Positions 12,127-49,836 of a stretch of DNA of 64,000 bases are shown here, in pieces; positions within the stretch are counted from its first letter, which is position 1; the number at the start of each line of letters is the position of its first letter. The DNA is from Crambe crambe (lineage: Eukaryota > Porifera > Demospongiae > Poecilosclerida > Crambeidae), in the NCBI GenBank assembly GCA_963924555.1, contig OZ004585.1:6585488-6649487 (forward strand). Direction: 5' to 3'. Position numbers and translations under genes: made by a program. The notes under the pieces were generated by a model, which worked only from the letters and a program-made list of their open reading frames with translations, made no database searches and was not told where the DNA came from.

Positions 12127-12896
12127 ATATGTGACACGCTATATGAAAACCAGGAATGTTACTCAATAATCAATTTCTGGATATGCGCGTATAAAGGGAA
12201 AAAATTTTTTATCCACTTCTTTTTTTTTAAACCTCCACAGTATCTTCGGTCCTTTGACTACCTCCATACCAAATTTGAAGGCTTTGAAGTGGGCAAGTGC
12301 TCGAGTTGACGTCACCAACTCAAACCGGCATAATTATTTTGACCTTTGTGCCCAAAGATTAATATGGAGGGCATGCATACGTAGTGCGCGGAAAAAAGGG
12401 AAATTCCCCAGAATTGATGTTTTTGTTGAATCTAGACATAGCTCAACAAAAACATCAATTCTGTTTTCAATTCTGATCCCAGCAGTGTATATATCCCATC
12501 CCAGACTTACCAGGTTGTGATCCAGGATTGGCCCCATGCCTTACACACCCTAGATAACCAAGGTGCTCAAAGATAACAATGCAGTGAAGCAAAACTTACA
12601 TGGCCTTCTTCCTCTCAAAACAGCTGGTGCAAAGATTGAAATGATGTCATCGCGTTATACGGGTGCACGTAACAATTTACGGAGTATTGTGTCATAACAG
12701 GAAGTTCAATGTTTGGACGCGTTTTATTCTGAAACGCTCTCTCACTTCAAGCGCTTATAGCTCAGGGATACTTTAAGGTATAGCCTCAAGCTTGGTATCA
12801 ATCGATAGCTAACGCAGTGAGCTATTGTGTGATAGCAATAACTCTGTTTTGAATTTTTGAGTAACATTCCTGGTTTTCATATAGCATGTCACATAT
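12127..12896. mobile_element. TIR element B (770 bp), ending next to a splice acceptor
   Basis: It has the same termini as the element at 10957-11985 and an internal deletion relative to it. Its right end (GTCACATAT, to 12896) lies 4 bp from the AG at 12901-12902 that I read as the acceptor of the first visible exon of the ROCO gene. The terminal repeat therefore forms the end of the intron, including its weak pyrimidine tract. Confidence 0.85.
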
Positions 12897-12902
12897 ATGC
12901 AG

Positions 12903-14441
12903 ATCGTCATACTCCAGCTGGATCATGTGACACACAAGATGACGAAAATATTTCATCCTCTGAAACATGTTATCTCCCCCAAGAAAAAGTGGATCGATTA
13001 ACCCGCCCTACTGAACAAAGCCAAGGTGCACTTAACTGGCTTCCTAAACAGAGCTGTTTAGCACGTGTAAAGAAAAAAACAGAAGATTTAAAATGGAAAT
13101 TCAACATATTGCTTCATGATTTTCGTGCAACTTTATCAGAAACAACTAATGATGAAAATTTTTTCCGTCGGTGTGACCTGATCTTGGATATACTTTCAAT
13201 CGATTCTAAGACAGGGGATGAAATAAAAGCAAGTAATGATGTGAAGAAGCTTTCAGAAAAGATTTTTAAACATCAGTCTTTCATGAATTTTGGCATTCTA
13301 GTAGAGAAACTCATTCCACTGTTTGGATCTGAACAAGATAAAGTAATGGCAAAAGAATATATTGAGACCTTTAAAACATATTTAAAATGCAGAGTAATTG
13401 ATTGCAGTGAGATGTGTCCATCAGTTCTTACTAATCATTTTAGCATTATTTTTATTGTAAACGAAAATCAAGAAGAGTACAGGATTAGTGACCTGTTTAC
13501 TTTCAGGCTACATCTGAGTGAATATATAGGAATTGATGACACTAAAATATTATTAGCTGGAGTTAAAGGAGGGAGTGTTATAGTTCATGTTCTACTTCCT
13601 GATTCCTTCTTGAAAAAGTTACTGTCTCGACCTCTTTATCCAAAGAAAATAGAAGCTTTTAAAGATGCTTCTGTAAGATCGTATCATTGGAAAGACCATG
13701 AAGTGTTGCTAAAGCATTGGAAAACACTCACAAATGTCTCATTACCTCCAGCTGAATCATCTCCAATACATGAGAAAAAAGGTAAGATTATAAAATCTGC
13801 TCATCATCAGGGCGAGGAGTGTATGGCTCTTGTGTATCCAAATCAGTTTTCTAAAGAATCCGAGGTTGATATTGAGTATATTAAGTACCTGGAAGTTTTG
13901 ATTCGTGATCACAAAGAAGTACCATCTATTAGAGGGTTATACTATCCACCAGAAGAGGGAGAATTGCAAAGATATCCTGTAGTAATCACTGAAAAGTTAA
14001 AATTTTTGGAAGAAATTACCATTCCCACGAATTATGATGAATCAGATATCGATCTACTTCAGATATCTCTCCTTTCGAATATTGCAAGTTGTGCAAAGGG
14101 ATTTGAAAAGCTAAACCATAAAATGAAGGTGTCCACTGACCACATATTAATTCAAGAAGATGCTGCTGAATACAAAGCAAAATTCATTCCAGTTTATGGT
14201 GACTCGCTCATTAGTGAAATACACAGCAACAGCATTTCTAAATCACTACCACAAGATGACTTGCTGTGGATTAAGGAAATAGTACTTCATATTGTGTCTC
14301 ATGGTGGTAGCACTTCCCATGTTGAAATTCCCGACAAACATATTCTGAAGAACATGATTGAACAAAAGTGGCTCTCTGAGGACACACAGTTTAGACCTCA
14401 TACCTACTCAGAATTAGCTGATGAACTTCAACATTTACTTG
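12903..14441 (+). CDS. ROCO-Death gene, exon 1 visible: helical region and pseudokinase
   Basis: A 513-codon exon, bounded by a phase-1 acceptor (ATATATGCAG) and a phase-1 donor (G|GTGAGTACAT). The open frame extends a little upstream into element B, but only via a TTG codon and no ATG until about 13281, so at least one earlier exon is missing from my model. The N-terminal half is charged and probably helical. A middle segment, around GVKGGSVIVHVLLPDSF, resembles a conserved stretch seen in many sponge signalling proteins. The last 200 residues look like a protein kinase fold: IRGLYYPP then YPVVITEKLKFLEE (hinge region), HKMKVSTDHILIQED where the catalytic loop should be, and FRPHTYSELADELQHLL as the end of the C-lobe. 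HRD and DFG are absent, so it should be a pseudokinase. Fold assignment is by motif order only. Confidence 0.7.
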
Positions 14442-14592
14442 GTGAGTACATAATGCTTGCTGAATTACCATGCATTATACCCATCATACATTTATAGCTA
14501 CTGTAGAATGATATTGCATGTCATAATAATTATCATCATAGTATGGCACCTTAAACTTATATAAGCTCTAAATAATTATAATACCTTTTTAG

Positions 14593-16455
14593 AAACAGAA
14601 AAAACCTGGATTGGCTTAATAAAGATTTCCACAGATGACGATCTTGTAATGGATGAGGTTCAGATTCATGTTATTTTGATCGGCCACACTGGAGTTGGTA
14701 AGACAAGTCTCCGAAAGCATCTGAAAAATGATCCTATAGATATTAATGAACGACCCACAATAGTCATGGAACCTGAATTCCTCTATTGTGAATCAATGGA
14801 AGGAAGTGTCTTCAAGCCATTACTGGATCTACCCAGTGATTGTCAAACTAAAGTCTTTCTCACCATGTGGGACACTGGAGGTCAACCGATATTCCAAGAT
14901 CTACTGCCTTGCTTTGCACGACTAAAGTGCATGTATGGAATAGTTTTCCGTTTGAGCGATTTGGAAAAGTTTGACGAGAGGCCAGAAATCAGACCCTGCA
15001 CGTCTTCCCATAAGCCAGCTTCATCTCCATTCACTAATCGAGACATTATGTATCGTAATCTATCTTTTGTCCAAGTTTTTTCTCAAAGGCAACAAGAGAT
15101 CTTGCCTCCAGAAGTGAGATCTGAAGATTCCCAAGAAGCTTTAACTGCAGCTGTTATGATTGGAACATTCAGAGATAAAGCAACTCCTTCAGACAGACAT
15201 ATTCTTAAAGATATTGATCTTAATATTGGTCAGTTTGCCAGTGAAAACAAGAGTAGCATATCACTCTATGCTGTACAAGAACAGGGAGAGTATAAATCTT
15301 ATGTACACAAAGTTGATAATACAAGATCAGGGAATGAATCAGACAAAGGAAGTGATTCAGGAATTGAGTTACTTAGAAACGCTATATCAACTTGTGCTAA
15401 AGAGTCATCAAGCACTAAAATTCCACGCTCATGGCAACAATTCAGACTAGCTCTACAAAGAAAGTGTTACACTAATTTCATCAACATCGGCATTCTTCCC
15501 TTAGATGAAGTTATTTTAATTGGCAAAGAGTGCAATGTCAAAAACCCTAAAGCTGCATTGATGTACTTTCATGAGCTTGGAGTGTTCATGTGGTATCATT
15601 CATCCAAAAAAAGAACTCTGAAAAATTTCGTGGTAATTGATCCAAAAAATTTGCTGCAAATCCTTGGAACTTTATTTTGCTATGATCCTAAATCCCTTAC
15701 AACTGAATGGGGAACATTAACCAAAAAGGGAGTCGTACCAATGAGCTTGTATAGGTGTTGTCTTGAGAAGAAAGGATGTAAAATTGATGAAAATTGGTTT
15801 ATGGACTTTTTAGAAGAGCATCATCTGTGCATTAGAGTTTGTTTTCCTTCAAAAGAGATTTGTTACTTCATTCCTTCAGTAATGCCTACTGTGGATGACT
15901 ATGAAAGAAATTTGAAGCGGTTGAACAATGATGACATATCTCCCCTCTATATAGTTCCAGATCCCAAGTCTAAATATATTGCTACTGGTGTATTTGCTAG
16001 ACTACTAACCGCATTAGCCGGAGTTACTTATGGCAATACAAGATGGAAGATACCACTTGATAGCAGCATTCAGTATATCCAATTCTGCAGAAACCAGTTT
16101 GAATTTATAATCAATGATTGTATGCATGTAGTACTATCTGAATTTTCTCAATATATTAGAGTTGATTGTATTCCATATGACGACATTTTGATGAACAAAG
16201 ACATCTACTTCCATATTAGGTCAACTCTAAATGTACAACTACAGCGAGTAGTACCACCACGTTGGTCTAAAGAACAAGAGTTTGATTTAACAGTAGCTTG
16301 CAATAGCTGTTCATTGAAAGAAACACATTTTTTGAAAGTGAAGAAGATTGATTTAGTATCAAACACTTGTGAATGTACCAATGGATATGCTAGTGAGCTC
16401 AAGAAGTCTGATAGAAGATGGTTTAATAATGAAGATATTCCTGAGATGACTACAG
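14593..16455 (+). CDS. ROCO-Death gene, exon 2: Roc GTPase and COR domain
   Basis: A 621-codon exon between phase-1 junctions (acceptor CCTTTTTAG at 14592, donor G|GTGAGC at 16456). It opens with about 20 linker residues, then VHVILIGHTGVGKTSLRKHL-type sequence with a complete P-loop (GHTGVGKT) and switch II WDTGGQPIFQDLLPCFARLK. The Roc domain is followed by a long acidic and serine-rich insert, then a COR-like region with DEVILIGKEC, ALMYFHELGVFMWYHSS and FVVIDPKNLLQILGTLF. COR domains mediate dimerisation of ROCO GTPases. Nucleotide binding looks intact here. The tail (about 16300-16440) has several cysteines (CNSCSLKE, CECTNG) that could bind zinc. ROCO class is well supported; the closest subfamily is not decided. 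Confidence 0.88.
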
Positions 16456-16597
16456 GTGAGCTTTAGTGATGTATACATGAACAAAACTGTTATAATAGTG
16501 ATCTTTATCATACCCATTGAATAACTATCCAGTAGCTACATATGGATTGATTCATCTAGCTATATGAATAGCCATTTTATTTTAAGTATATCTCTAT

Positions 16598-16820
16598 AAA
16601 GGTATATACCTTTTCGCACAAAAATTTAAAATTGAGTTATTGGTATCATTTTAAAGCTCTTAATCTGGAGATTTACATGGCTTTTAAATCAAATTTATAC
16701 ACCACTTTGTTCCTGAGTTATACTTAATTGAATTTTACATCTCTTGTACATTTTATATGTAGCTTGTAAACTTTACAAGTGTTTAACAGCTTTTAATGTT
16801 TTGCACGAAAAGGTACCTTT
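16598..16820. mobile_element. MITE inside the ROCO gene intron
   Basis: AAAGGTATATACCTTTTCGC at the left, continuing ACAAAA, is matched by TTTTGCACGAAAAGGTACCT at the right. Its interior (CATTTTAAAGCTCTTA and AAATCAAATTTATAC) recurs at 60640-60720, and CTTGTAAACTTTACAAG-type sequence recurs inverted at 43300-43345. It sits wholly in the 424-bp intron 16456-16879. Confidence 0.75.
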
Positions 16821-16879
16821 TCTGTCACATATTTCATCTTCCTCCTCCATATTAATATTATCTTATTATTAATACACAG

Positions 16880-18796
16880 GTGAGGCTGATACTCTATTTT
16901 ATGAAGCAATGAAGAATGGATCTCTCAATATCAGTGTTGCATCAGTTGTGTTTTTTGGAATTTCCAGCTCTGAAGTTTCAAGTGCTAAGCACATAACCCT
17001 TCAAGAACATGTGCCTACTACAATGAATACTGCAATGTCATCCTTAGGTAAGCATGAAATCTATTTTCGAGCTGCTGATTGCAATGATACTATGTTTAAG
17101 AAGATGGAAACAAATGATTATAATGAAATCATAACATTTACAATGTCATCTAAAGCCGAGAGAAAGGTGGAAACAAAACATGTATCATCATCAGCACAGG
17201 TACAGGTATCTTCACCAACATTTCCATCACAACAGTCATCAGCATCATCACTAGAATCACCTCGTGATCAGATTTTATCAGCACAGCAAATGGATGCATC
17301 AATATCTACTGTAGAAGAAACAGCAGAAGAAACAAAACCTAAACAAGATCTACCTCATCAAGAGTCAAGTCCTAAACAAGATCTGCCTAAGCTTGAAGCA
17401 AGTCTTGATCAGTCTTTAGTAGCTATGAGTGTTGCTGACACTATACACTTCATGACACAGTACAAGAATACAGGGAAAATGGAATTGTTACATGTTATTG
17501 AAAATGGTGGATTGATTTCATGTAAATTCAGTGAAATTTTGAAACTTTTTATCAAGGATGTGACTCTGTATGCTTTTGTTACTGATTTATCGAATGACTT
17601 ACATCCTGCTGAATTGAATGCTTTGCTGCACATTACAGCACAAGGTTCCAAGATTCTCATTATAGGAACTAATGAAGAAACCGATGATGAAATTAAAATC
17701 CCTTTGCTACAACAAAACTTGAACAATAAAAACATTAAAGAAAATAAACTCCTCCTAAGATGTAAATCACCACAAAGAAAGGACTATGAAGTTGGTTCCA
17801 GCATTATAGTGCATGCACTATCAGTGTCTAATCCCAAGAGATTTCCATTTTCATGGTATGTATTTGGTTTCAAGTTGAAAGACTACATTGACTCCTCAAA
17901 CTTGGGAATTCTGAGTGTTAATGGACATTGTATGGAAATTGGTAAAAAACTCCACATGGATGCGCCAACAGTTCGGGCAGCACTTGAACATTTGACAGAT
18001 CACAACATGATACTTTACTTTAAAGATATTCTACCTGATATTGTTTTTTCAGGAATTGCAATTTTTTCACATATATTTACTTCTCTGTGTGCTAAACTCA
18101 ATTCAGGCAGGAGTTTAATCGACTGGCATTCATCCATCGTCAGTAAAACAGCCTTTCTGACAGAAATTACTTCCTTTACTAGTGGACTGAATTATATAAC
18201 TGACAATGATTTTATAATATTATTCCAAAAGTTAATGATACTAGCACCTTTTGATGGCGACTCCAATTACATATTGCCTTTCATGCTTCAATCTTTGGAT
18301 GAGACTAGAAGACAACAGATTTATGCTAATCATCTTACTTCATCAAATGTTCCTGTGTTAATAAAGTGCCCTGGTCCTGGTAGTGAGTTTATGTCGATGT
18401 TAATTGCATGTCTTTTGAATCAGTCATGGATTATTGCTAAAGATCATTCTGGAAATCCCAGGTGTCTATACAAAAATTGTGTTACCTTTAGATTAGAAAA
18501 TTATACCATAACAGTCACTTCCTGGGCAGAATATATAGAAATATGTGTAGAAACATTCAAGGAGAAAAAAATTTCTAATTATCGTCACATTGCCTCGACC
18601 ATTTTGCTAATCTTACACAGAATAAACGTCCTTAGAAATGGCTATAATCAATTTGAATTTAATATTGGATTTTATTGTGATTGTGGAAAAAGCAATGAAC
18701 AACACACATGCACTTACAGCACTAAAGACCATGTATTACTATGTGAAAAGAATAGAGATAAAATGTTTCCTTCTTCTAGTCAAATGCAATGGTTAG
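16880..18796 (+). CDS. ROCO-Death gene, exon 3: second, degenerate Roc-COR unit
   Basis: A 639-codon exon with phase-1 boundaries (acceptor ACACAG, donor G|GTAAGA). It starts GEADTLFYEAMKNGSLNISV, the usual lead-in to a Roc domain, but where a P-loop is expected it reads FFGISSSEVSSAKH with no GxxxxGKS/T. A low-complexity Ser/Gln/Glu-rich insert follows (about 17160-17400, including a repeated PKQDLP). The rest again follows Roc-COR order: TLYAFVTDLSNDLHPAE, ILIIGTNEETDDE (normal Roc sheet), FPFSWYVFGFKLKDYI, then GKKLHMDAPTVRAALEHL and MILYFKDILPDIVF (COR). The C-terminal third (VPVLIKCPGPGSEF to DHVLLCE) matches a region commonly found before Death domains in sponge ROCO proteins. This second GTPase should not bind nucleotide. 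Confidence 0.75.
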
Positions 18797-18851
18797 GTAA
18801 GAAATAATTATCTTTGAAATGTATCAATCATTACAGTATCTAATTCATTAG

Positions 18852-19093
18852 GTGCAGACGTTCAAGAACCCCTGACAATTACTAATGCTGTCAATCTGTT
18901 GCTTCAATTATCTGATAAGTGGATTGAGGTGGCATCTTTTCTTGGTGTACCTGGAGCAGTAATACACACCATCACTGTTTCTAGTCAAAAGGATAATCAA
19001 GTTGCTTTGAGGAAAGCTGTGGAGTGGTGGTTCAAGAACTGTGCTAATCCTGAATGGGATCAAATTCACCAAATATTGATTTCAGGTCTGTAG
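18852..19093 (+). CDS. ROCO-Death gene, exon 4: C-terminal Death domain
   Basis: After a 55-bp intron (18797-18851) the frame continues GADVQEPLTITNAVNLLLQL, then SDKWIEVASFLGVPGAVIHT, and ends near AVEWWFKNCANPEWDQIHQI before a stop at 19091-19093. The W-x(2)-VASFLGV core, a central I-x-H-x-I helix and the late W-W...W pattern fit a Death domain of about 80 residues, a homotypic interaction module used in apoptosis and innate immune signalling. The frame can either end at TAG or leave at a GT (19086) that would again be phase 1; see the GRF exons downstream. Confidence 0.82.
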
Positions 19094-21277: not shown

Positions 21278-21930
21278 ATATCTATAATTATGTTTATAAA
21301 TTATGTGAATATTATGATAAAATCTGCTCTTGTTTATTTATTACTTCTTGTGGTTTTTTCTATTAACATTGCCAAACTTGCCAAGTGGTGATGTCCCAAT
21401 ATCAGCAATGTCAACTTTATTACCAGTGGTGACTCTTTTTTATCAGGAAATTCCCCAATAGCTAGCTACAAATGATCAGCATAATTTTACCAACTGAATA
21501 TTGCCAATAAATACGAAACCTTGTTAAAAGATCTGTGGTTCAGTACATGTTCTCAAGTTTTAATTCCCCACATAATGTATTGCCTCTATTCCTGTCTTCC
21601 TCGTACAGTGACTTCACTGCCTTCATAGCCAATGCAAACACTTCCTCCTCCAGCATCATTAATGACTTTTACTATAGCTATCTGCAAACGACATATTTTG
21701 TGGACTAAAAAGTTTCCAACCATCAGTCAGCACAGTGATTTTGCCAATGCTCTTTTCCATCACCAAGCTGCTCGATCAATAACCCCACTATAGTGATGAA
21801 GATAAGGCATTCTAGCATCTCTGCAAATATAAAATAGCTACCTTCATTACTATGAACTTTACTAGTGAGAGTTCAGATCGATATAAGGCACAGCTAGCTT
21901 TTACAGTCTAACACTTCTTACATTCTCATA
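21278..21930 (+). pseudogene. Pseudogene copy of the four-pass receptor family (copy 1)
   Basis: It is homologous at DNA level to the main exons at 29483-31281 and 35714-37512: the acceptor and TTGTGTTCACAAATTACGTG-like start, ACATTGCCAAACTTGCCAAG, TGTCTTCCTCGTACAGTGAC and AACTTTACTAGTGAGAGTTC are all recognisable. It carries stops, frameshifts and several deletions. The upstream half matches module 1 and the part after the TACAGTGACTTCACTGCCTT block matches module 2, so the copy has only one ectodomain. The last coding part is lost at the insertion of a foldback element (21953-22868); homologous 3' sequence (GCAGATCATGGTGATTCATA) resumes at 22886. No 2A leader exon is detectable upstream. 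Confidence 0.85.
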
Positions 21931-28774: not shown

Positions 28775-31281
28775 ATGACTCAATCCCACCACTGGAAGAG
28801 TGTTGGAGATATGTATCTACAAAGGGATGTGTGCAAAATAGTGATCATCGGCCCTTTGTTGTTGATGCTGGCTGGTGACATTGAAGTGAACCCTGGACCT
28901 GGTGAGTATACATAGTAGAGTGACTGGCAGCTAAAACTAAACTAATACAATTATTCCCTTACATATGTGTAGATTTTAATTGCTACATAAAATAATATAG
29001 CTAGTTACAAAATGAGGTACGTAGCTATGGGGATTTCGAAAGCTTGACAATTTTATGTGGTTTAAGGATTCTGTAGGGTTTGAGCGTTCCATGGGGCTTG
29101 AAAGTTCCATGGTATTTAGGGTTGGACATAAATTTTCATGGGGCTGCATGGAGCTTGAGATTTTCTAAACCATGAAATATGGAAAGCAACTACATAGTGT
29201 AACTTAAATTTAGCAAGAATAATTATGCAAGGTAGCACTCCCATGTAATGACCTCACGAACAAGGCTATTCTTCGAGAGCAGGTACCAATCGTGTGTACT
29301 TTATCATACTTGAATTTGCTCAAACTTGCTTGACTCTGATTTCTTGGGCCTCAGAACGGAACCACTCTTGGCTGCACGTGCCCCTGATTAATAGTGCCAT
29401 AGATTGTATAGACTACATAGTCTATGATAGCATGCATAATGTGATAGGGACCTAATTAATTATTATTCTTATTGAATTTCAGACAACTGTGATTGTGTTC
29501 ACAAATTACGTGAATATAGTGATAAAAACTGCTCTTGTTGTGTGCTGTTAACTGTAGTTTATTTATCACTACTGGTGGTTTTTCTATGTCTGTATTTAAC
29601 ATTGCCAACCTTGCCAAGTGGTGAAGTCCTGATAGGGAGCAATGATGTGGTGCTTGTCACAACCATAAACACCGATGCTGTCAGTAATGTCAATTTTAAT
29701 ACCAGAAGTGACTCACCGGATGTCTTATTATATCAGGAAAAATGCTCGGCAATCCCGAATACAAATGATCGGCATAATTTCACTGATCGACTGAATGTCG
29801 CAACCAATACACAATACATCATCAATCAGACGTACCTTGTCAAAGGATCTGTAGTTCAGTACACATTCTCAAGTTTTAATTCCTCACATAATACATCCAC
29901 TTGCATTGCCTCTATTCCTGTCTTCCTCACGTACAGTGACTTCACTTCCTTCCTTGTAAGTGGATTCATTGCGAATTCAAATGCTTCATACTGCCTTCCT
30001 CCAGCCTCATCAGTGACATTCACTATATCTGCTGATGATCAAAATTTGCACTATTTCGTGGGGCTGAAAGGACTCCAATCAGCTGTCGTTGACTTCACCT
30101 TAATTGCTGATGTCATTAGATATAATATCACCGAACTGACTGCTACTTCTTGTACATTTCCAACATCACATTGCTCTATAATACCCCTTTCGAATCACGA
30201 CAGTCGAGATGTATGCATTCTAGCTTGGACGATGCAGTCTGAAGTCTTCACTACACTGCAGTATGATAGTGGAAGTTCTAGACACTTGGCACAAGTTATT
30301 TTTTCATGGATAATGTTAAGTTTTGCTGTTATATTATTCATTTGTACAATTGTATTATGCTTATTGTCTTTTCGTTATGATACATGTTTCCAACACTTTG
30401 TTATTCTTTTTGTATGCAATCCTTGCATTTTTATTTTCGTATGTGCATTTTCTGCACCTATTGGTCTTATCATCGGCTTAACTCTACCTGTTCTACCAAG
30501 TGGTGAAGTTTTGATTGGTGATAACAACGTGGTACTTGCTACTAGAGTAGGCAGTTTCGTTGGTGAAACTAACTTCCATGGCACCAGTTCATTGAATGTC
30601 ACTTTTTATCGTGACACCTGTTCTGAGATTCCGACTAAAATCCGACACCGGAGTTCGTCTCAACAAATCAATGCCACTGAAAATATGTATATTATAGATC
30701 AAACATATGTGATTATTGGTTCTGAAGTGCAGTATATATTTTCGAGTTTTGAGTCATCAATCGGATTATCTTGTATTGCAATAATTCCTGTCTTCCTCAC
30801 ACACAGTGACTTCACTGCATTCCTTGCCAATGGATTCATTGCCAATGCACATACTTCCCACTGCCTCCCACCAGCATCATCAGTGACTTTTACTATATCT
30901 GCAAATGACAAAAACCGTCACTATTTTGTGGGACTGAAAAGTTTCCAATCATCAATCATTAACGGCACAATCATTGGAAATGTAGTCGAGTATGACGTTG
31001 CCAACATGATCACTATTTCATGCCGCTCTTTTTCATCACAGAGCTGCTCAATCAATAACCCCCCTAGTGGTGAAGATATGTGCATTCTAGCATCCCTGCA
31101 AGTATCCAATGCCTTCATTACTGTGAACTTTACTAGTGAGAGTTCACATCGATATAAGGCACAGCTTGCTTTTGCAGTGATAACACCTGTGGTTTTTATT
31201 GTGACAGTTTTCATAATTGCATTTATTATACTTAATTACTCTATATATTATTCACTAATAGTAGATCATGGTGACTCATGA
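28775..31281 (+). CDS. 2A-led four-pass membrane protein, copy 2
   Basis: Two exons, 28775-28901 and 29483-31281, joined by a phase-1 intron (donor G|GTGAGTATAC, acceptor GAATTTCAG), predict 641 residues. Exon 1 encodes 42 residues: a polar start, hydrophobic CKIVIIGPLLLMLA, and GDIEVNPGP, the 2A skipping motif. After skipping, a product of 600 residues would begin with Pro42 and a Cys-rich segment (NCDCVHK, NCSCC). TM1 is about 63-81; ectodomain 1 about 86-307; TM2 313-339; TM3 348-376; ectodomain 2 381-600; TM4 603-627; short tail SLIVDHGDS. The two ectodomains are clear repeats (LPSGEVLIG, VFLT-SDFT-FL, GFIAN, CLPPASSVTFTIS, HYFVGLK), with many NxS/T sites. I do not recognise the ectodomain family. 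No ATG occurs in frame at the start of exon 2, so exon 1 is needed for initiation. Confidence 0.85.
28874..28900 (+). other. 2A ribosome-skipping motif, copy 2
   Basis: Codons 34-42 read GDIEVNPGP, which satisfies the known 2A core D-(V/I)-E-x-N-P-G-P, with the peptide bond expected to be skipped between Gly41 and Pro42. The motif ends one base before the exon donor site, so the exon is essentially leader plus 2A. Confidence 0.85.
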
Positions 31282-35051: not shown

Positions 35052-37512
35052 ATGACTCAATCCCACCACTGGAAGAGTGTTGGAGATATGTATCTACAAA
35101 GGGATGTGTGCAAAATAGTGATCATCGGCCCTTTGTTGTTGATGCTGGCTGGTGACATTGAAGTGAACCCTGGACCTGGTGAGTATACATAGTAGAGTGA
35201 CTGGCAGCTAAAACTAAAACTATTGCCTTACGTATGTAATTGCTACATAAAATAATATAGCTAGTTACAAAATGTAGCTATGGGGATTTCGAAAGCTTGA
35301 CAGTTTCATGTGGTTTGAGGGCTTGAGTGTTCCATGGGGCTTGATAGTTCCGTGGTATTTACGGTTGGACATGAAGTTTCATGGGGCTGCATGGAGCTTG
35401 AGATTTTCTATATAAACCATGAAATATGGAAAGCAACTAGCTACATAGTGTAACTTAAATTTAGCATGCAAGTAGCACTCTCATGAAATGATCTCACGAG
35501 TACACTGCAAGCATATGTAGATACTAATCCATGCTGCAAGGCTATATTCTTCGAGAGCAGGTATAGCTACCAATCGTGTGTACTTTGAATTTGCTTGACT
35601 CCAATTTTTTGGGCCTCAGAACAGAACCACTCTTGACTTAACATGCATAGCTCCTGATTAATAATGCCATAGATTGTATAGACTATACATCATCTATTCT
35701 TATTGAATTTCAGAAAATTGTGATTGTGTTCACAAATTACGTGAATATAGTGATAAAAACTGCTCTTGTTGTGTGCTGTTAACTGTAGTTTATTTATCAC
35801 TACTGGTGGTTTTTCTATGTCTGTATTTAACATTGCCAACTTTGCCAAGTGGTGAAGTCCTGATAGGGAGCAATGATGTGGTGCTTGTCACAACCATAAA
35901 CACTGATGTTGTCAGTAATGTCAATTTTAATACCAGAAGTGACTCACTGGATGTCTTACTATATCAGGAAACATGCTCGGCAATCCCGAATACAAATGAT
36001 CGGCATAATTTTACTGATCGACTGAATGTCGCAACCAATACACAATACTTCATCAATCAGACATACCTTGTCAAAGGATCTACAGTTCAGTACACATTCT
36101 CAAGTTTTAATTCCTCACATAACACATCCACTTGCATTGCCTCTATTCCTGTCTTCCTCACGTACAGTGACTTCACTGCCTTCCTTGTAAGTGGATTCAT
36201 TGCGAATTCAAATGCTTCATACTGCCTTTCTCCAGCCTCATCAGTGACATTTACTATATCTGCTGATGATCAAAATTTGCACTATTTCGTGGGGCTGAAA
36301 GGACTCCAATCAGCTGTCGTTGACTTCACCTTAATTGCTGATGTCATGAGATATAATATCACCGAACTGACTGCTACTTCTTGTACATTTCCAACATCAC
36401 ATTGCTCTATAACACCCAATCACGACAGTCAAGATGTATGCATTCTAGCTTGGACGATGCAGTCTGAAGTTTTCACCACACTGCAGTATGATAGTGGAAG
36501 TTCTAGACACTTGGCACAAGTTATTTTTTCATGGATAATGTTAAGTTTTGCTATTATATTATTCATTTGCACAATTGTATTGTGCTTATTGTCTTTTCGT
36601 TATGATACATGTTTCCAACACTTTGTTATTCTTTTTGTATGTAATCCTTGCATTTTTATTTTCGTATGTGCATCTTCTGCACCTATTGGTCTTATCATCG
36701 GCTTAACTCTACCTGTTCTACCAAGTGGTGAAGTTTTGATTGGTGATAACAACGTGGTACTTGCTACTAGAGTAGGCAGTTTCGTTGGTGAAACCAACTT
36801 CCATGGCACCAGTTTATTGAATATCACTTTTTATCGTGACACCTGTTCAAAGATTCCAACAAAAATCCGACACCGGAGTTCTTCTCGACAAATCAATGCC
36901 ACTGAAAATATTCCATATAGTATAGATCAAACATATATGATCATTGGCTCTGAAGTGCAGTATATATTTTCGAGTTTTGAATCGTCAATCGGATTATCTT
37001 GTATTGCAATGATTCCTGTCTTCCTCACATACAGTGACTTCACTGCATTCCTTGCCAATGGATTCATTGCCAATGCAAATACTTCCTACTGCCTCCCACC
37101 AGCATCATCAGTGACTTTTACTATATCTGTAAACAATAAAAACTGTCACTATTTTGTGGGACTGAAAAGTTTCCAATCGTCAATCATTAACAGCACAATC
37201 ATTGGAAATGCAGTCGAGTATGACGTTGCCAACATGATTACTACTACTTCATGCCACTCTTTTCCATCACTGAGCTGCTCAATCAATAACCCCCCTAGTG
37301 GTGAAGATATGTGCATTCTAGCATCCCTGCAAGTATCCAATGCCTTCATTACTGTGAACTTTACTAGTGAGAGTTCACATCGATATAAGGCACAGCTTGC
37401 TTTTGCAGTGATGACACCTGTGGTTTTTGTTGTGGCTGATTTCATTATTGCATTTATTTTACTTAATTACTATATATATTATTCACTAATAGTAGATCAT
37501 GGTGACTCATGA
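35052..37512 (+). CDS. 2A-led four-pass membrane protein, copy 3
   Basis: Two exons, 35052-35178 and 35714-37512, phase-1 intron, 641 residues. Exon 1 encodes exactly the same 42 residues as copy 2, ending GDIEVNPGP. The main exon differs from copy 2 by scattered substitutions and two compensating small indels (SIIPLSNHDSRD against SITPNHDSQD; TENMYIIDQ against TENIPYSIDQ), which leave the length unchanged. Residue 43 is Glu here instead of Asp. Topology is the same: TM1 near 63-81, two homologous ectodomains separated by a two-helix hairpin (about 312-375), TM4 near 603-627 and a short SLIVDHGDS tail. Both copies keep open frames through 1.8 kb, which argues that both are under constraint. 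Function unknown; extracellular recognition or adhesion is a guess from glycosylation sites and topology. Confidence 0.85.
35151..35177 (+). other. 2A ribosome-skipping motif, copy 3
   Basis: Identical GDIEVNPGP at codons 34-42 of the short leader exon. The synonymous codons are also unchanged from copy 2 over this stretch. Confidence 0.85.
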
Positions 37513-49100: not shown

Positions 49101-49290
49101 GTTGTCAACAAATAAAAGGTACGGTCTTTTCAGCTGCTGAAATCACCAAGTTGTGTTTGCTGCTCATGCTGTGAAGAAAGTGTTGCAGAGTCGTTCGCTA
49201 GACTCGCCCTTAAAAAAAAAAGAGTAAAACTGTAGCCTATCCACTAAGGATCTTTTTCTCCCCACAAAACAACAAAAAAAAAAAACCATG
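49095..49290 (+). promoter_or_regulatory. Putative core promoter and 5' UTR of the BTG gene
   Basis: AAATAAAAGG at about 49111 resembles a TATA box; it lies roughly 175 bp before the ATG, in a stretch that is less AT-rich than its surroundings. The start codon context is AAAAACCATGA. Both are inferred by pattern only. Confidence 0.35.
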
Positions 49291-49836
49291 AAAGAAGAAG
49301 TTCACTGTGCGTGTGAGTTTTTCTCCAAGATGCTGGAAACTAGACATCTACCTCGCCAGTTCGCCAACCAGTTCAGAATCAGACTGGAAGAGCTGCTATC
49401 CGAAAGATTTAAGGACCACTGGGACACTAGGAACCCCAACAAAGGCAGTGCGTATCGCTGCATAAGAATCAACTCGAAGATGGATCCCATTGTAAGCGAG
49501 GCCGCTAAGGCAACAGGCCTCAAAGATATCTCGAAGTACTTCCCAGCTGAGTTCACGATGTGGATAGATCCTAGAGATGTGTCGTACAGATTCGGAGAAG
49601 ACGGGTCTATCTGTTCGTGCCCTCTTGACTTCATGATAACACGGTCAGAATGGGCTTCGACTGGTTCAAGCACCTCTACCGTTTCCACAGTATCGACTTC
49701 AAGCTCTCTCTCTTCCTCAAATCGCGTCCTGCCCCTGAGAGCAAACAGTAGTCCAACGCAACAATCTAGCTACTACAGAGCATATCACAGAAGGGATGCT
49801 GGTATGTCTTCCAGACTTATTCAAGTACAGGTTTGA
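49288..49836 (+). CDS. BTG: BTG/Tob-family anti-proliferative protein (intronless)
   Basis: One uninterrupted frame of 182 residues with an ATG in good context. The BTG domain covers about residues 1-115: helical N-terminus (EFFSKMLETRHLPRQFANQF), box A region 41-61 (FKDHWDTRNPNKGSAYRCIR) and box B region 84-105 (YFPAEFTMWIDPRDVSYRFG), followed by EDGSICSC. Family proteins bind CAF1/CNOT7 of the CCR4-NOT deadenylase and restrain proliferation. The remaining 60 residues are a Ser/Thr-rich tail. The length is nearer BTG1/BTG2 than Tob. No intron is seen, whereas vertebrate BTG1/2 genes have one; retroposition or intron loss is possible, though no poly-A relic or flanking duplication is evident. 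Candidate poly-A signal AATAAA at 50332. Confidence 0.93.
   Translation: MKEEVHCACEFFSKMLETRHLPRQFANQFRIRLEELLSERFKDHWDTRNPNKGSAYRCIRINSKMDPIVSEAAKATGLKDISKYFPAEFTMWIDPRDVSYRFGEDGSICSCPLDFMITRSEWASTGSSTSTVSTVSTSSSLSSSNRVLPLRANSSPTQQSSYYRAYHRRDAGMSSRLIQVQV

Follow-up and report, generated by a model that had tools for sequence, protein, structure and literature searches.

Predicted 2A (StopGo) leader exons ahead of membrane-protein and death-domain-like exons in the genome of the sponge Crambe crambe

In the sea urchin, immune genes are already known to carry N-terminal 2A leaders: 85 of 241 NLRs belong to a 2A-leader family (Roulston 2016, PMC4981915). According to the available part of that paper, the leader of SpNLR2A6 gives approximately 80% skipping in vitro, and a non-skipping mutant carries a reporter into the exocytic pathway, to the Golgi and the medium. 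Cellular use of such StopGo elements is called rare in a paper that combines structural work with a survey (Li et al. 2026, PMC12846837) and which in its available portion describes L-rich StopGo motifs 2 and 6, ending in (A/S/C)G before p12=D, and a motif-6 example that is active in vitro.

Here, we describe an exon from Crambe crambe that ends in a motif of this kind. It lies in a stretch of 64,000 nucleotides of contig OZ004585.1, hereafter the window, for which a sequence-only reading had proposed that a 2A peptide forms a leader exon of its own on a multi-pass receptor. We consider it likely that the exon belongs to a large genomic family of skipping 2A (StopGo) leaders with a minority unskipped, signal-like form, and that the two window genes that carry it are a derived short form.

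The leader and membrane exons of the window

The first gene of the pair consists of the following elements (window positions):

28775..28901, + strand: leader exon 1, copy 1; 42 codons and the first base of codon 43, with the 2A octapeptide at its end
28838..28876, + strand: hydrophobic stretch IVIIGPLLLMLAG, residues 22-34, an L-rich StopGo context ending in AG, its motif class as given in the available text of PMC12846837
28877..28900, + strand: 2A/StopGo core DIEVNPGP, with a predicted skip between Gly41 and Pro42
28902..29482, + strand: phase-1 intron, GTGAGT...TTTCAG, with no death-domain exon detected within it
29483..31281, + strand: exon 2, with four predicted TM helices, two related ectodomains and ten N-glycosylation sequons, ending in TGA

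Translation of 28775-28900 gives the 42 residues MTQSHHWKSVGDMYLQRDVCKIVIIGPLLLMLAGDIEVNPGP, confirming the 42-codon exon ending in a 2A motif that had been called in the earlier reading. Its exon end at 28901 was also correct: base 28901 (g) opens the next codon, and the exon therefore runs one base beyond its 42 codons (phase 1). A strong phase-1 donor, CCTG/GTGAGT, starts at 28902, one base past the leader codons and hence past the core, as expected of a dedicated leader exon. The C-terminal end of the leader, LLLMLAGDIEVNPGP, consists of LLLMLAG followed by DIEVNPGP, and thus bears out the claim of a full 2A core, (D/G/C/N)(V/I)ExNPGP, together with a permissive StopGo context, L-rich with (A/S/C)G before the D. 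In a six-frame translation of the window, NPGP occurs only in this leader and in a twin leader (35154), and the motif is beyond chance. The 13 residues of the hydrophobic stretch have a mean Kyte-Doolittle value of 2.63 and are short for a membrane span; by hydropathy alone, this best 13-residue mean compares with 2.82 in SpNLR2A6.

Joining 28901 to 29483 produces an ATG-to-TGA frame of 641 aa, so the frame-preserving junction to a multi-pass exon held up. With its ATG and its place at the head of this open frame, the 42-aa leader puts the 2A at the protein N-terminus, as in the SpNLR2A type; the DEATH-NACHT-LRR arrangement downstream in that type is absent, the window gene having neither a death domain (DD) nor NACHT. 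Among the AGs from 28960 to 29620, the only open phase-1 acceptors are 29483 and 29558, the latter inside TM1. Methionines of the joined protein are at positions 1, 13, 31 and then 293, and because there is none at 32-292, exon 2 needs an upstream start exon.

Strong hydrophobic segments of the joined protein span residues 61-79, 319-337, 357-375 and 608-626, and the second ectodomain has two weak ones as well. The two similar ectodomains hold six and four N-glycosylation sequons, with two more in the N-tail and C-end, and the N-tail of the receptor carries three basic and four acidic residues with no clear charge bias. The ten ectodomain sequons speak for a normal topology of the shed receptor, with its N-terminus inside; a topological switch by the unskipped leader is possible. 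Exon 2 matched no Pfam family at E 0.001, and a fold search from a structure of the membrane exon was dropped at an AlphaFold2 mean pLDDT of 46.5. Between the leader and exon 2 in the window, no death-domain remnant was detected.

A DD is clearly matched at just one place in the window, a DD-like ORF at 18818-19090 (profile E 2.1e-6) behind a Roc-COR gene (12842-19090, + strand; Roc 9.8e-10). The first ORF of this gene resembles the domain that follows the leader and DD exons at two other loci, L040 and L045 (tblastn 1e-12), and no NPGP leader was found upstream of it within the window. A BTG/Tob family gene is located at 49228-49836 (+ strand; Pfam BTG 2e-37).

The leader and membrane exons recur in tandem, and a further piece of the membrane exon precedes both copies:

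35052..35178, + strand: leader exon, copy 2, identical to copy 1 at 127/127 positions
35179..35713, + strand: intron, copy 2, 92.1% identical to that of copy 1 where aligned, with 160 gap columns
35714..37512, + strand: exon 2, copy 2, with 96.2% DNA identity to copy 1
21327..21908, + strand: broken fragment of a third membrane exon

The 3′ flanks of the two copies are 67.8% identical. We rejected the identity of the leaders as proof of selection: their 5′ flanks are nearly as alike (98.9% identical over 100 nt), which leaves leader identity as weak evidence of constraint.

We found six full-length, uninterrupted members of the membrane exon family, every one of them on contig C8, plus several broken pieces. 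Among the listed motif sites, a same-strand canonical motif lies 0.5-6.8 kb upstream of five of the six; the 48 kb upstream of the sixth hold none that is listed, which counts against the reading we prefer. The motif adjoins the membrane exon directly in the two window genes, because no death-domain exon is present there, and DD-like and other ORFs intervene at L040, L045 and L047. At L047, the membrane exon has a phase-1 acceptor available besides phase-0 ones; a second, decayed leader in front of it was considered and rejected, as LLLMLA alone matches. Most simply, the two window genes would be short forms derived from a leader-DD-...-TM arrangement by loss of the intervening exons, though the opposite order is possible.

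Alternatively, the leader could be part of some other transcript, for instance from a death-domain gene that has decayed, with no splicing to the membrane exon. This would accord with the missing death-domain exon, but we judge it improbable: frame and phase fit in both copies, exon 2 has no early Met, and a motif upstream recurs in the family as described above.

Relatives of the leader across the genome

Motif sites like that of the window exon number about two hundred in this genome. Searching the 143-Mb assembly with DNA patterns for D(V/I)ExNPGP gave 40+62+105 = 207 matches, and the reversed form of each of the three patterns gave 0. The 202 sites that are listed, out of 207, fall on 15 contigs and into 56 groups at 150-kb spacing, with up to 23 sites per group. 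One stretch, C9:306738-572027, holds 23 DVESNPGP or DVETNPGP sites (L059 among them) on one strand over 265 kb, about one per 12 kb. We read 66 of the 207 sites, comprising two in the window, the 30 first in contig order, 20 of the isoleucine type to which the window motif belongs and 14 from other groups, with four sites that were read twice counted once; this sample is non-random and contains many paralogues.

A strong donor lies within 45 nt of the core at 56 of the 66 sites, always in phase 1 and in open frame. The distance is within 22 nt for 55 of these, 38 being at offset 1, and the remaining donor (L072) is at offset 40. Six of the ten sites that lack a strong donor have AAAG/GTAT at offset 25, also in phase 1. 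Four copies of one leader on contig C18 (L053-L056) keep the core, have no phase-1 donor and run into an early in-frame stop; an ORF that we read as Gag-like from its sequence lies approximately 6 kb from one of them, L053.

This ORF, and the knowledge that 2A occurs in such elements (PMC4981915 and PMC11512398, in the text available), would suit an origin of the motifs as remnants of a 2A-bearing non-LTR retrotransposon or virus, exapted or dead. We disfavour that origin as very improbable, since no reverse transcriptase family was found in the 38 ORFs scanned (a subset of the locus ORFs), and the motifs stand in arrays with splice donors.

The dipeptide before the core is AG, SG or CG at 64 of the 66 sites, GG at one and AD at one (L057); these positions lie outside the genome search pattern and thus were not demanded by it. 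The AD site (C20:1572361) reads MADDIEVNPGP, a core without the L-rich hydrophobic context, with caspase and dsRNA-binding ORFs behind it, and, judging by its residues, may possibly be a natural loss of skipping.

Whole leaders also end where the motif does. A protein search of the genome with a 123-aa leader of another class returned 82 rows at 81 places. At 78 places the match terminates precisely on a canonical motif from the list, as do 58 of the 59 strongest rows, those spanning nearly the whole leader. The three exceptions are a place on C16 that may be an unlisted motif, C11:7085909, where the end is reached with no listed motif, and C11:2665901, where the match stops short of the leader end and a canonical motif follows about 0.5 kb further on. 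When the window leader served as a DNA query, the 15 rows returned fell at 14 places, every one on a motif site. In a 1.2-kb contig that may be from another species, a leader (P0028) that is 43% identical keeps LLILAGDVETNPGP. Some observations run against our preferred reading: stop codons occur in 9 of the 82 rows of the 123-aa search, a leader homologue in a protein collection (P0023) lacks the motif, and many leaders begin with a long region that does not resemble a classical signal peptide. The shortness of the hydrophobic stretch in the window leader, the missing context at L057, the C18 copies with no usable donor and the lack of a DD exon in both window genes weigh on the same side.

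In an ungapped comparison of 14 leaders of the window class, anchored at the core, pN from far to near the core was 0.42, 0.29, 0.18 and 0.06, and pS was 0.40, 0.35, 0.19 and 0.15. Between residues -25 and -8 the ratio is about 1; only in the last 7 residues and the core does it drop. We dropped the octapeptide value of 0.10 as proof, as its residues were demanded by the search. The pattern of amino-acid constraint near the core fits dual targeting and a pure self-removing start exon alike.

The latter would serve only to supply phase-1 exons with a promoter and a start codon before being almost fully shed, leaving the unskipped form without a role. The confinement of the drop in pN/pS to the core and the 7 residues before it points this way, as do the great diversity of the downstream ORFs and the fact that unlike leaders have in common only the L-rich context, the core and the phase. 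However, hydrophobic runs in L010, L039, L061 and L066 are longer than StopGo needs, as they would be for a signal, and a signal function has been shown for a sea urchin leader (PMC4981915, available text). On balance we hold a pure start exon to be a serious though unlikely alternative, and give the same weight to its corollary that the hydrophobic stretch is merely StopGo context.

What follows the leaders is, at more than half of the sites read, a DD-like exon. Two small profiles made from these loci detected one within 1.5 kb downstream on the sense strand at 37 of 66 sites, and none upstream (0/66) or antisense (0/66); 14 of the 37 loci were themselves seeds of the profiles, and among the other 23 many are closely paralogous to a seed. 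For some of the remaining 29 sites, little flanking sequence was covered. The pairing of leader and receptor thus stands in part: its junction fits, but it is an exception among the roughly 207 motif sites rather than the usual arrangement. A phase-1 acceptor precedes the DD at 26 of 26 loci in one DD-positive set and 8 of 8 in another. Other acceptor phases are open in some loci as well (for example L012, L013 and L074), and acceptor phase is weaker evidence than the donors because a phase-1 AG is often there by chance.

Pfam Death scored above cut-off at L027 (1.3e-9), L076 (3.3e-6), L010 (1.1e-5), L074 (2.4e-5) and L039 (3e-5), just below it at L067, L068 and L075, and weakly at L012 and L070 (0.027, below cut-off). 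At E 0.05 it had no match in the DD-like exons of L021, L035, L043, L069 and L073, the last of which matches Sec20 instead (2.5e-4, below cut-off). For the DD of the window class, Pfam Death was found in 7 of 8 members (best E 0.0029), and a predicted model (pLDDT 60.5) had the FADD death domain as its top Foldseek match (TM 0.57, E 1.3), with no PDB match by sequence; these results are no more than suggestive of a death fold.

NACHT was matched at L070 (6e-18) and L039 (6.3e-11), the relatives with both Death and NACHT matches, Death being below cut-off at L070. Other downstream ORFs encode Ig (L039, L069), NB-ARC with TPR (L049, L050), ankyrin and COR (L042), ankyrin (L028), a sacsin domain (L052), and caspase and dsRNA-binding domains (L057); no LRR family was found in the 38 ORFs scanned with Pfam. 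Their order and strand suggest that these ORFs are spliced into single genes with the leaders. At L039 (C8:3.09 Mb) and L069 (C10:4.68 Mb), a leader, a DD-like exon and Ig lie in one stretch, and at L039 NACHT is found beyond Ig, an unusual Ig-NACHT order.

The recurrence of one leader ending before such exons also bears on whether this is an ordinary signal peptide or anchor exon, its NPGP kept for another reason and its skipping negligible. The hydrophobic stretch ahead of the core and the adjoining membrane protein are what such an exon would have. Yet both the core and its context agree with StopGo elements that have been tested, including at residues left free by the search pattern, and the same ending precedes DD-like exons, where secretion makes little sense, so we regard this possibility as slight.

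A proposed mechanism and its wider meaning

In the skipping-leader reading that we prefer, exon 1 would be spliced in phase 1 to exon 2, as the splice signals and their phase suggest. By its likeness to tested elements, nascent LLLMLAGDIEVNPG is predicted to block formation of the Gly-Pro bond in most rounds of translation, whereupon the 41-residue leader would be released and the receptor would start at Pro42 (PDNCDCVHKLREYSDK). The shed receptor would have a short, cysteine-rich cytosolic tail and insert through its own TM1, with its N-terminus inside and both ectodomains out. By analogy with the sea urchin NLR leaders, a minority that did not skip would keep the hydrophobic leader as a signal-like segment and be routed to or through the ER as a second product.

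More than half of the relatives that we read would yield a cytosolic shed protein with a death domain at its start. Since the unskipped form would be routed to the ER, skipping would set the cytosolic to ER ratio of an immune protein. The window pair may have lost the exons between the leader and the membrane exon, a loss that could occur without a frame break because the phase-1 junctions are shared.

More speculatively, and with a little less confidence than we give to the pure start exon, we suggest that the 2A leader is a portable, self-erasing phase-1 start cassette of promoter, start codon and self-removing peptide, and that it contributed to the combinatorial assembly of an innate-immune repertoire comprising as many as about 200 genes. 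Because its peptide removes itself, the cassette could precede any phase-1 exon and leave the N-terminus of the protein unaltered. As skipping depends on undisturbed ribosomes, the ratio of skipped to unskipped product could report viral attack on translation and switch the location of a death-domain protein.

A trick thought rare in animals may thus be routine in this genome: 207 canonical sites, recurring at phase-1 exon ends and in many cases ahead of DD-like exons, would make StopGo a standard part of gene architecture here. Gene models without short first exons would miss these leaders. Two questions become testable. One is whether 2A skipping evolved as a means of regulated protein targeting in animals far removed from sea urchins; the other is how newly arisen immune receptor genes acquire working 5′ ends.

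Comparison with known systems

Odon et al. in 2013 and Heras et al. in 2006 reportedly described 2A sequences in non-LTR retrotransposons. The elements studied here resemble those in being encoded by a cellular genome, and differ in that the 38 ORFs scanned with Pfam, a subset, held no attached reverse transcriptase/endonuclease ORF. With the viral L-rich StopGo motifs 2 and 6, as set out in the available text of PMC12846837, they share the core octapeptide and the type of upstream hexapeptide; unlike viral StopGo, which stands between polyprotein domains, they are cellular, N-terminal and at an exon end.

No account of N-terminal 2A leaders in sponges, or on these architectures, was found in the literature compared, Rao et al. 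2025 (PMC12338488) being outside the comparison. One apparent NPGP match in a sponge paper was NPGPx, a peroxidase, and one match to '2A-like' was a protein name; both were discarded. The NLR repertoire of the sponge Dysidea avara (PMC12909245) is similar in its expanded DEATH/NACHT genes, some with TM segments, and the terms '2A-like', 'NPGP' and 'signal peptide' do not appear in the available text of that paper.

The nearest known counterpart of these leader exons is the sea urchin NLRs, a likeness that the earlier reading had drawn and that our comparison supports. In the available text of PMC4981915, which contains neither the word 'exon' nor 'sponge', those proteins share with the sponge loci an N-terminal hydrophobic leader ending in D(V/I)ExNPGP, an association with innate-immune death-domain proteins and a large family. 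Unlike them, the sponge leaders form a separate exon with a phase-1 donor, occur at 207 motif sites and precede architectures beyond NACHT, and in the window genes the leader is predicted to be joined directly to a 4-TM protein without a death domain.
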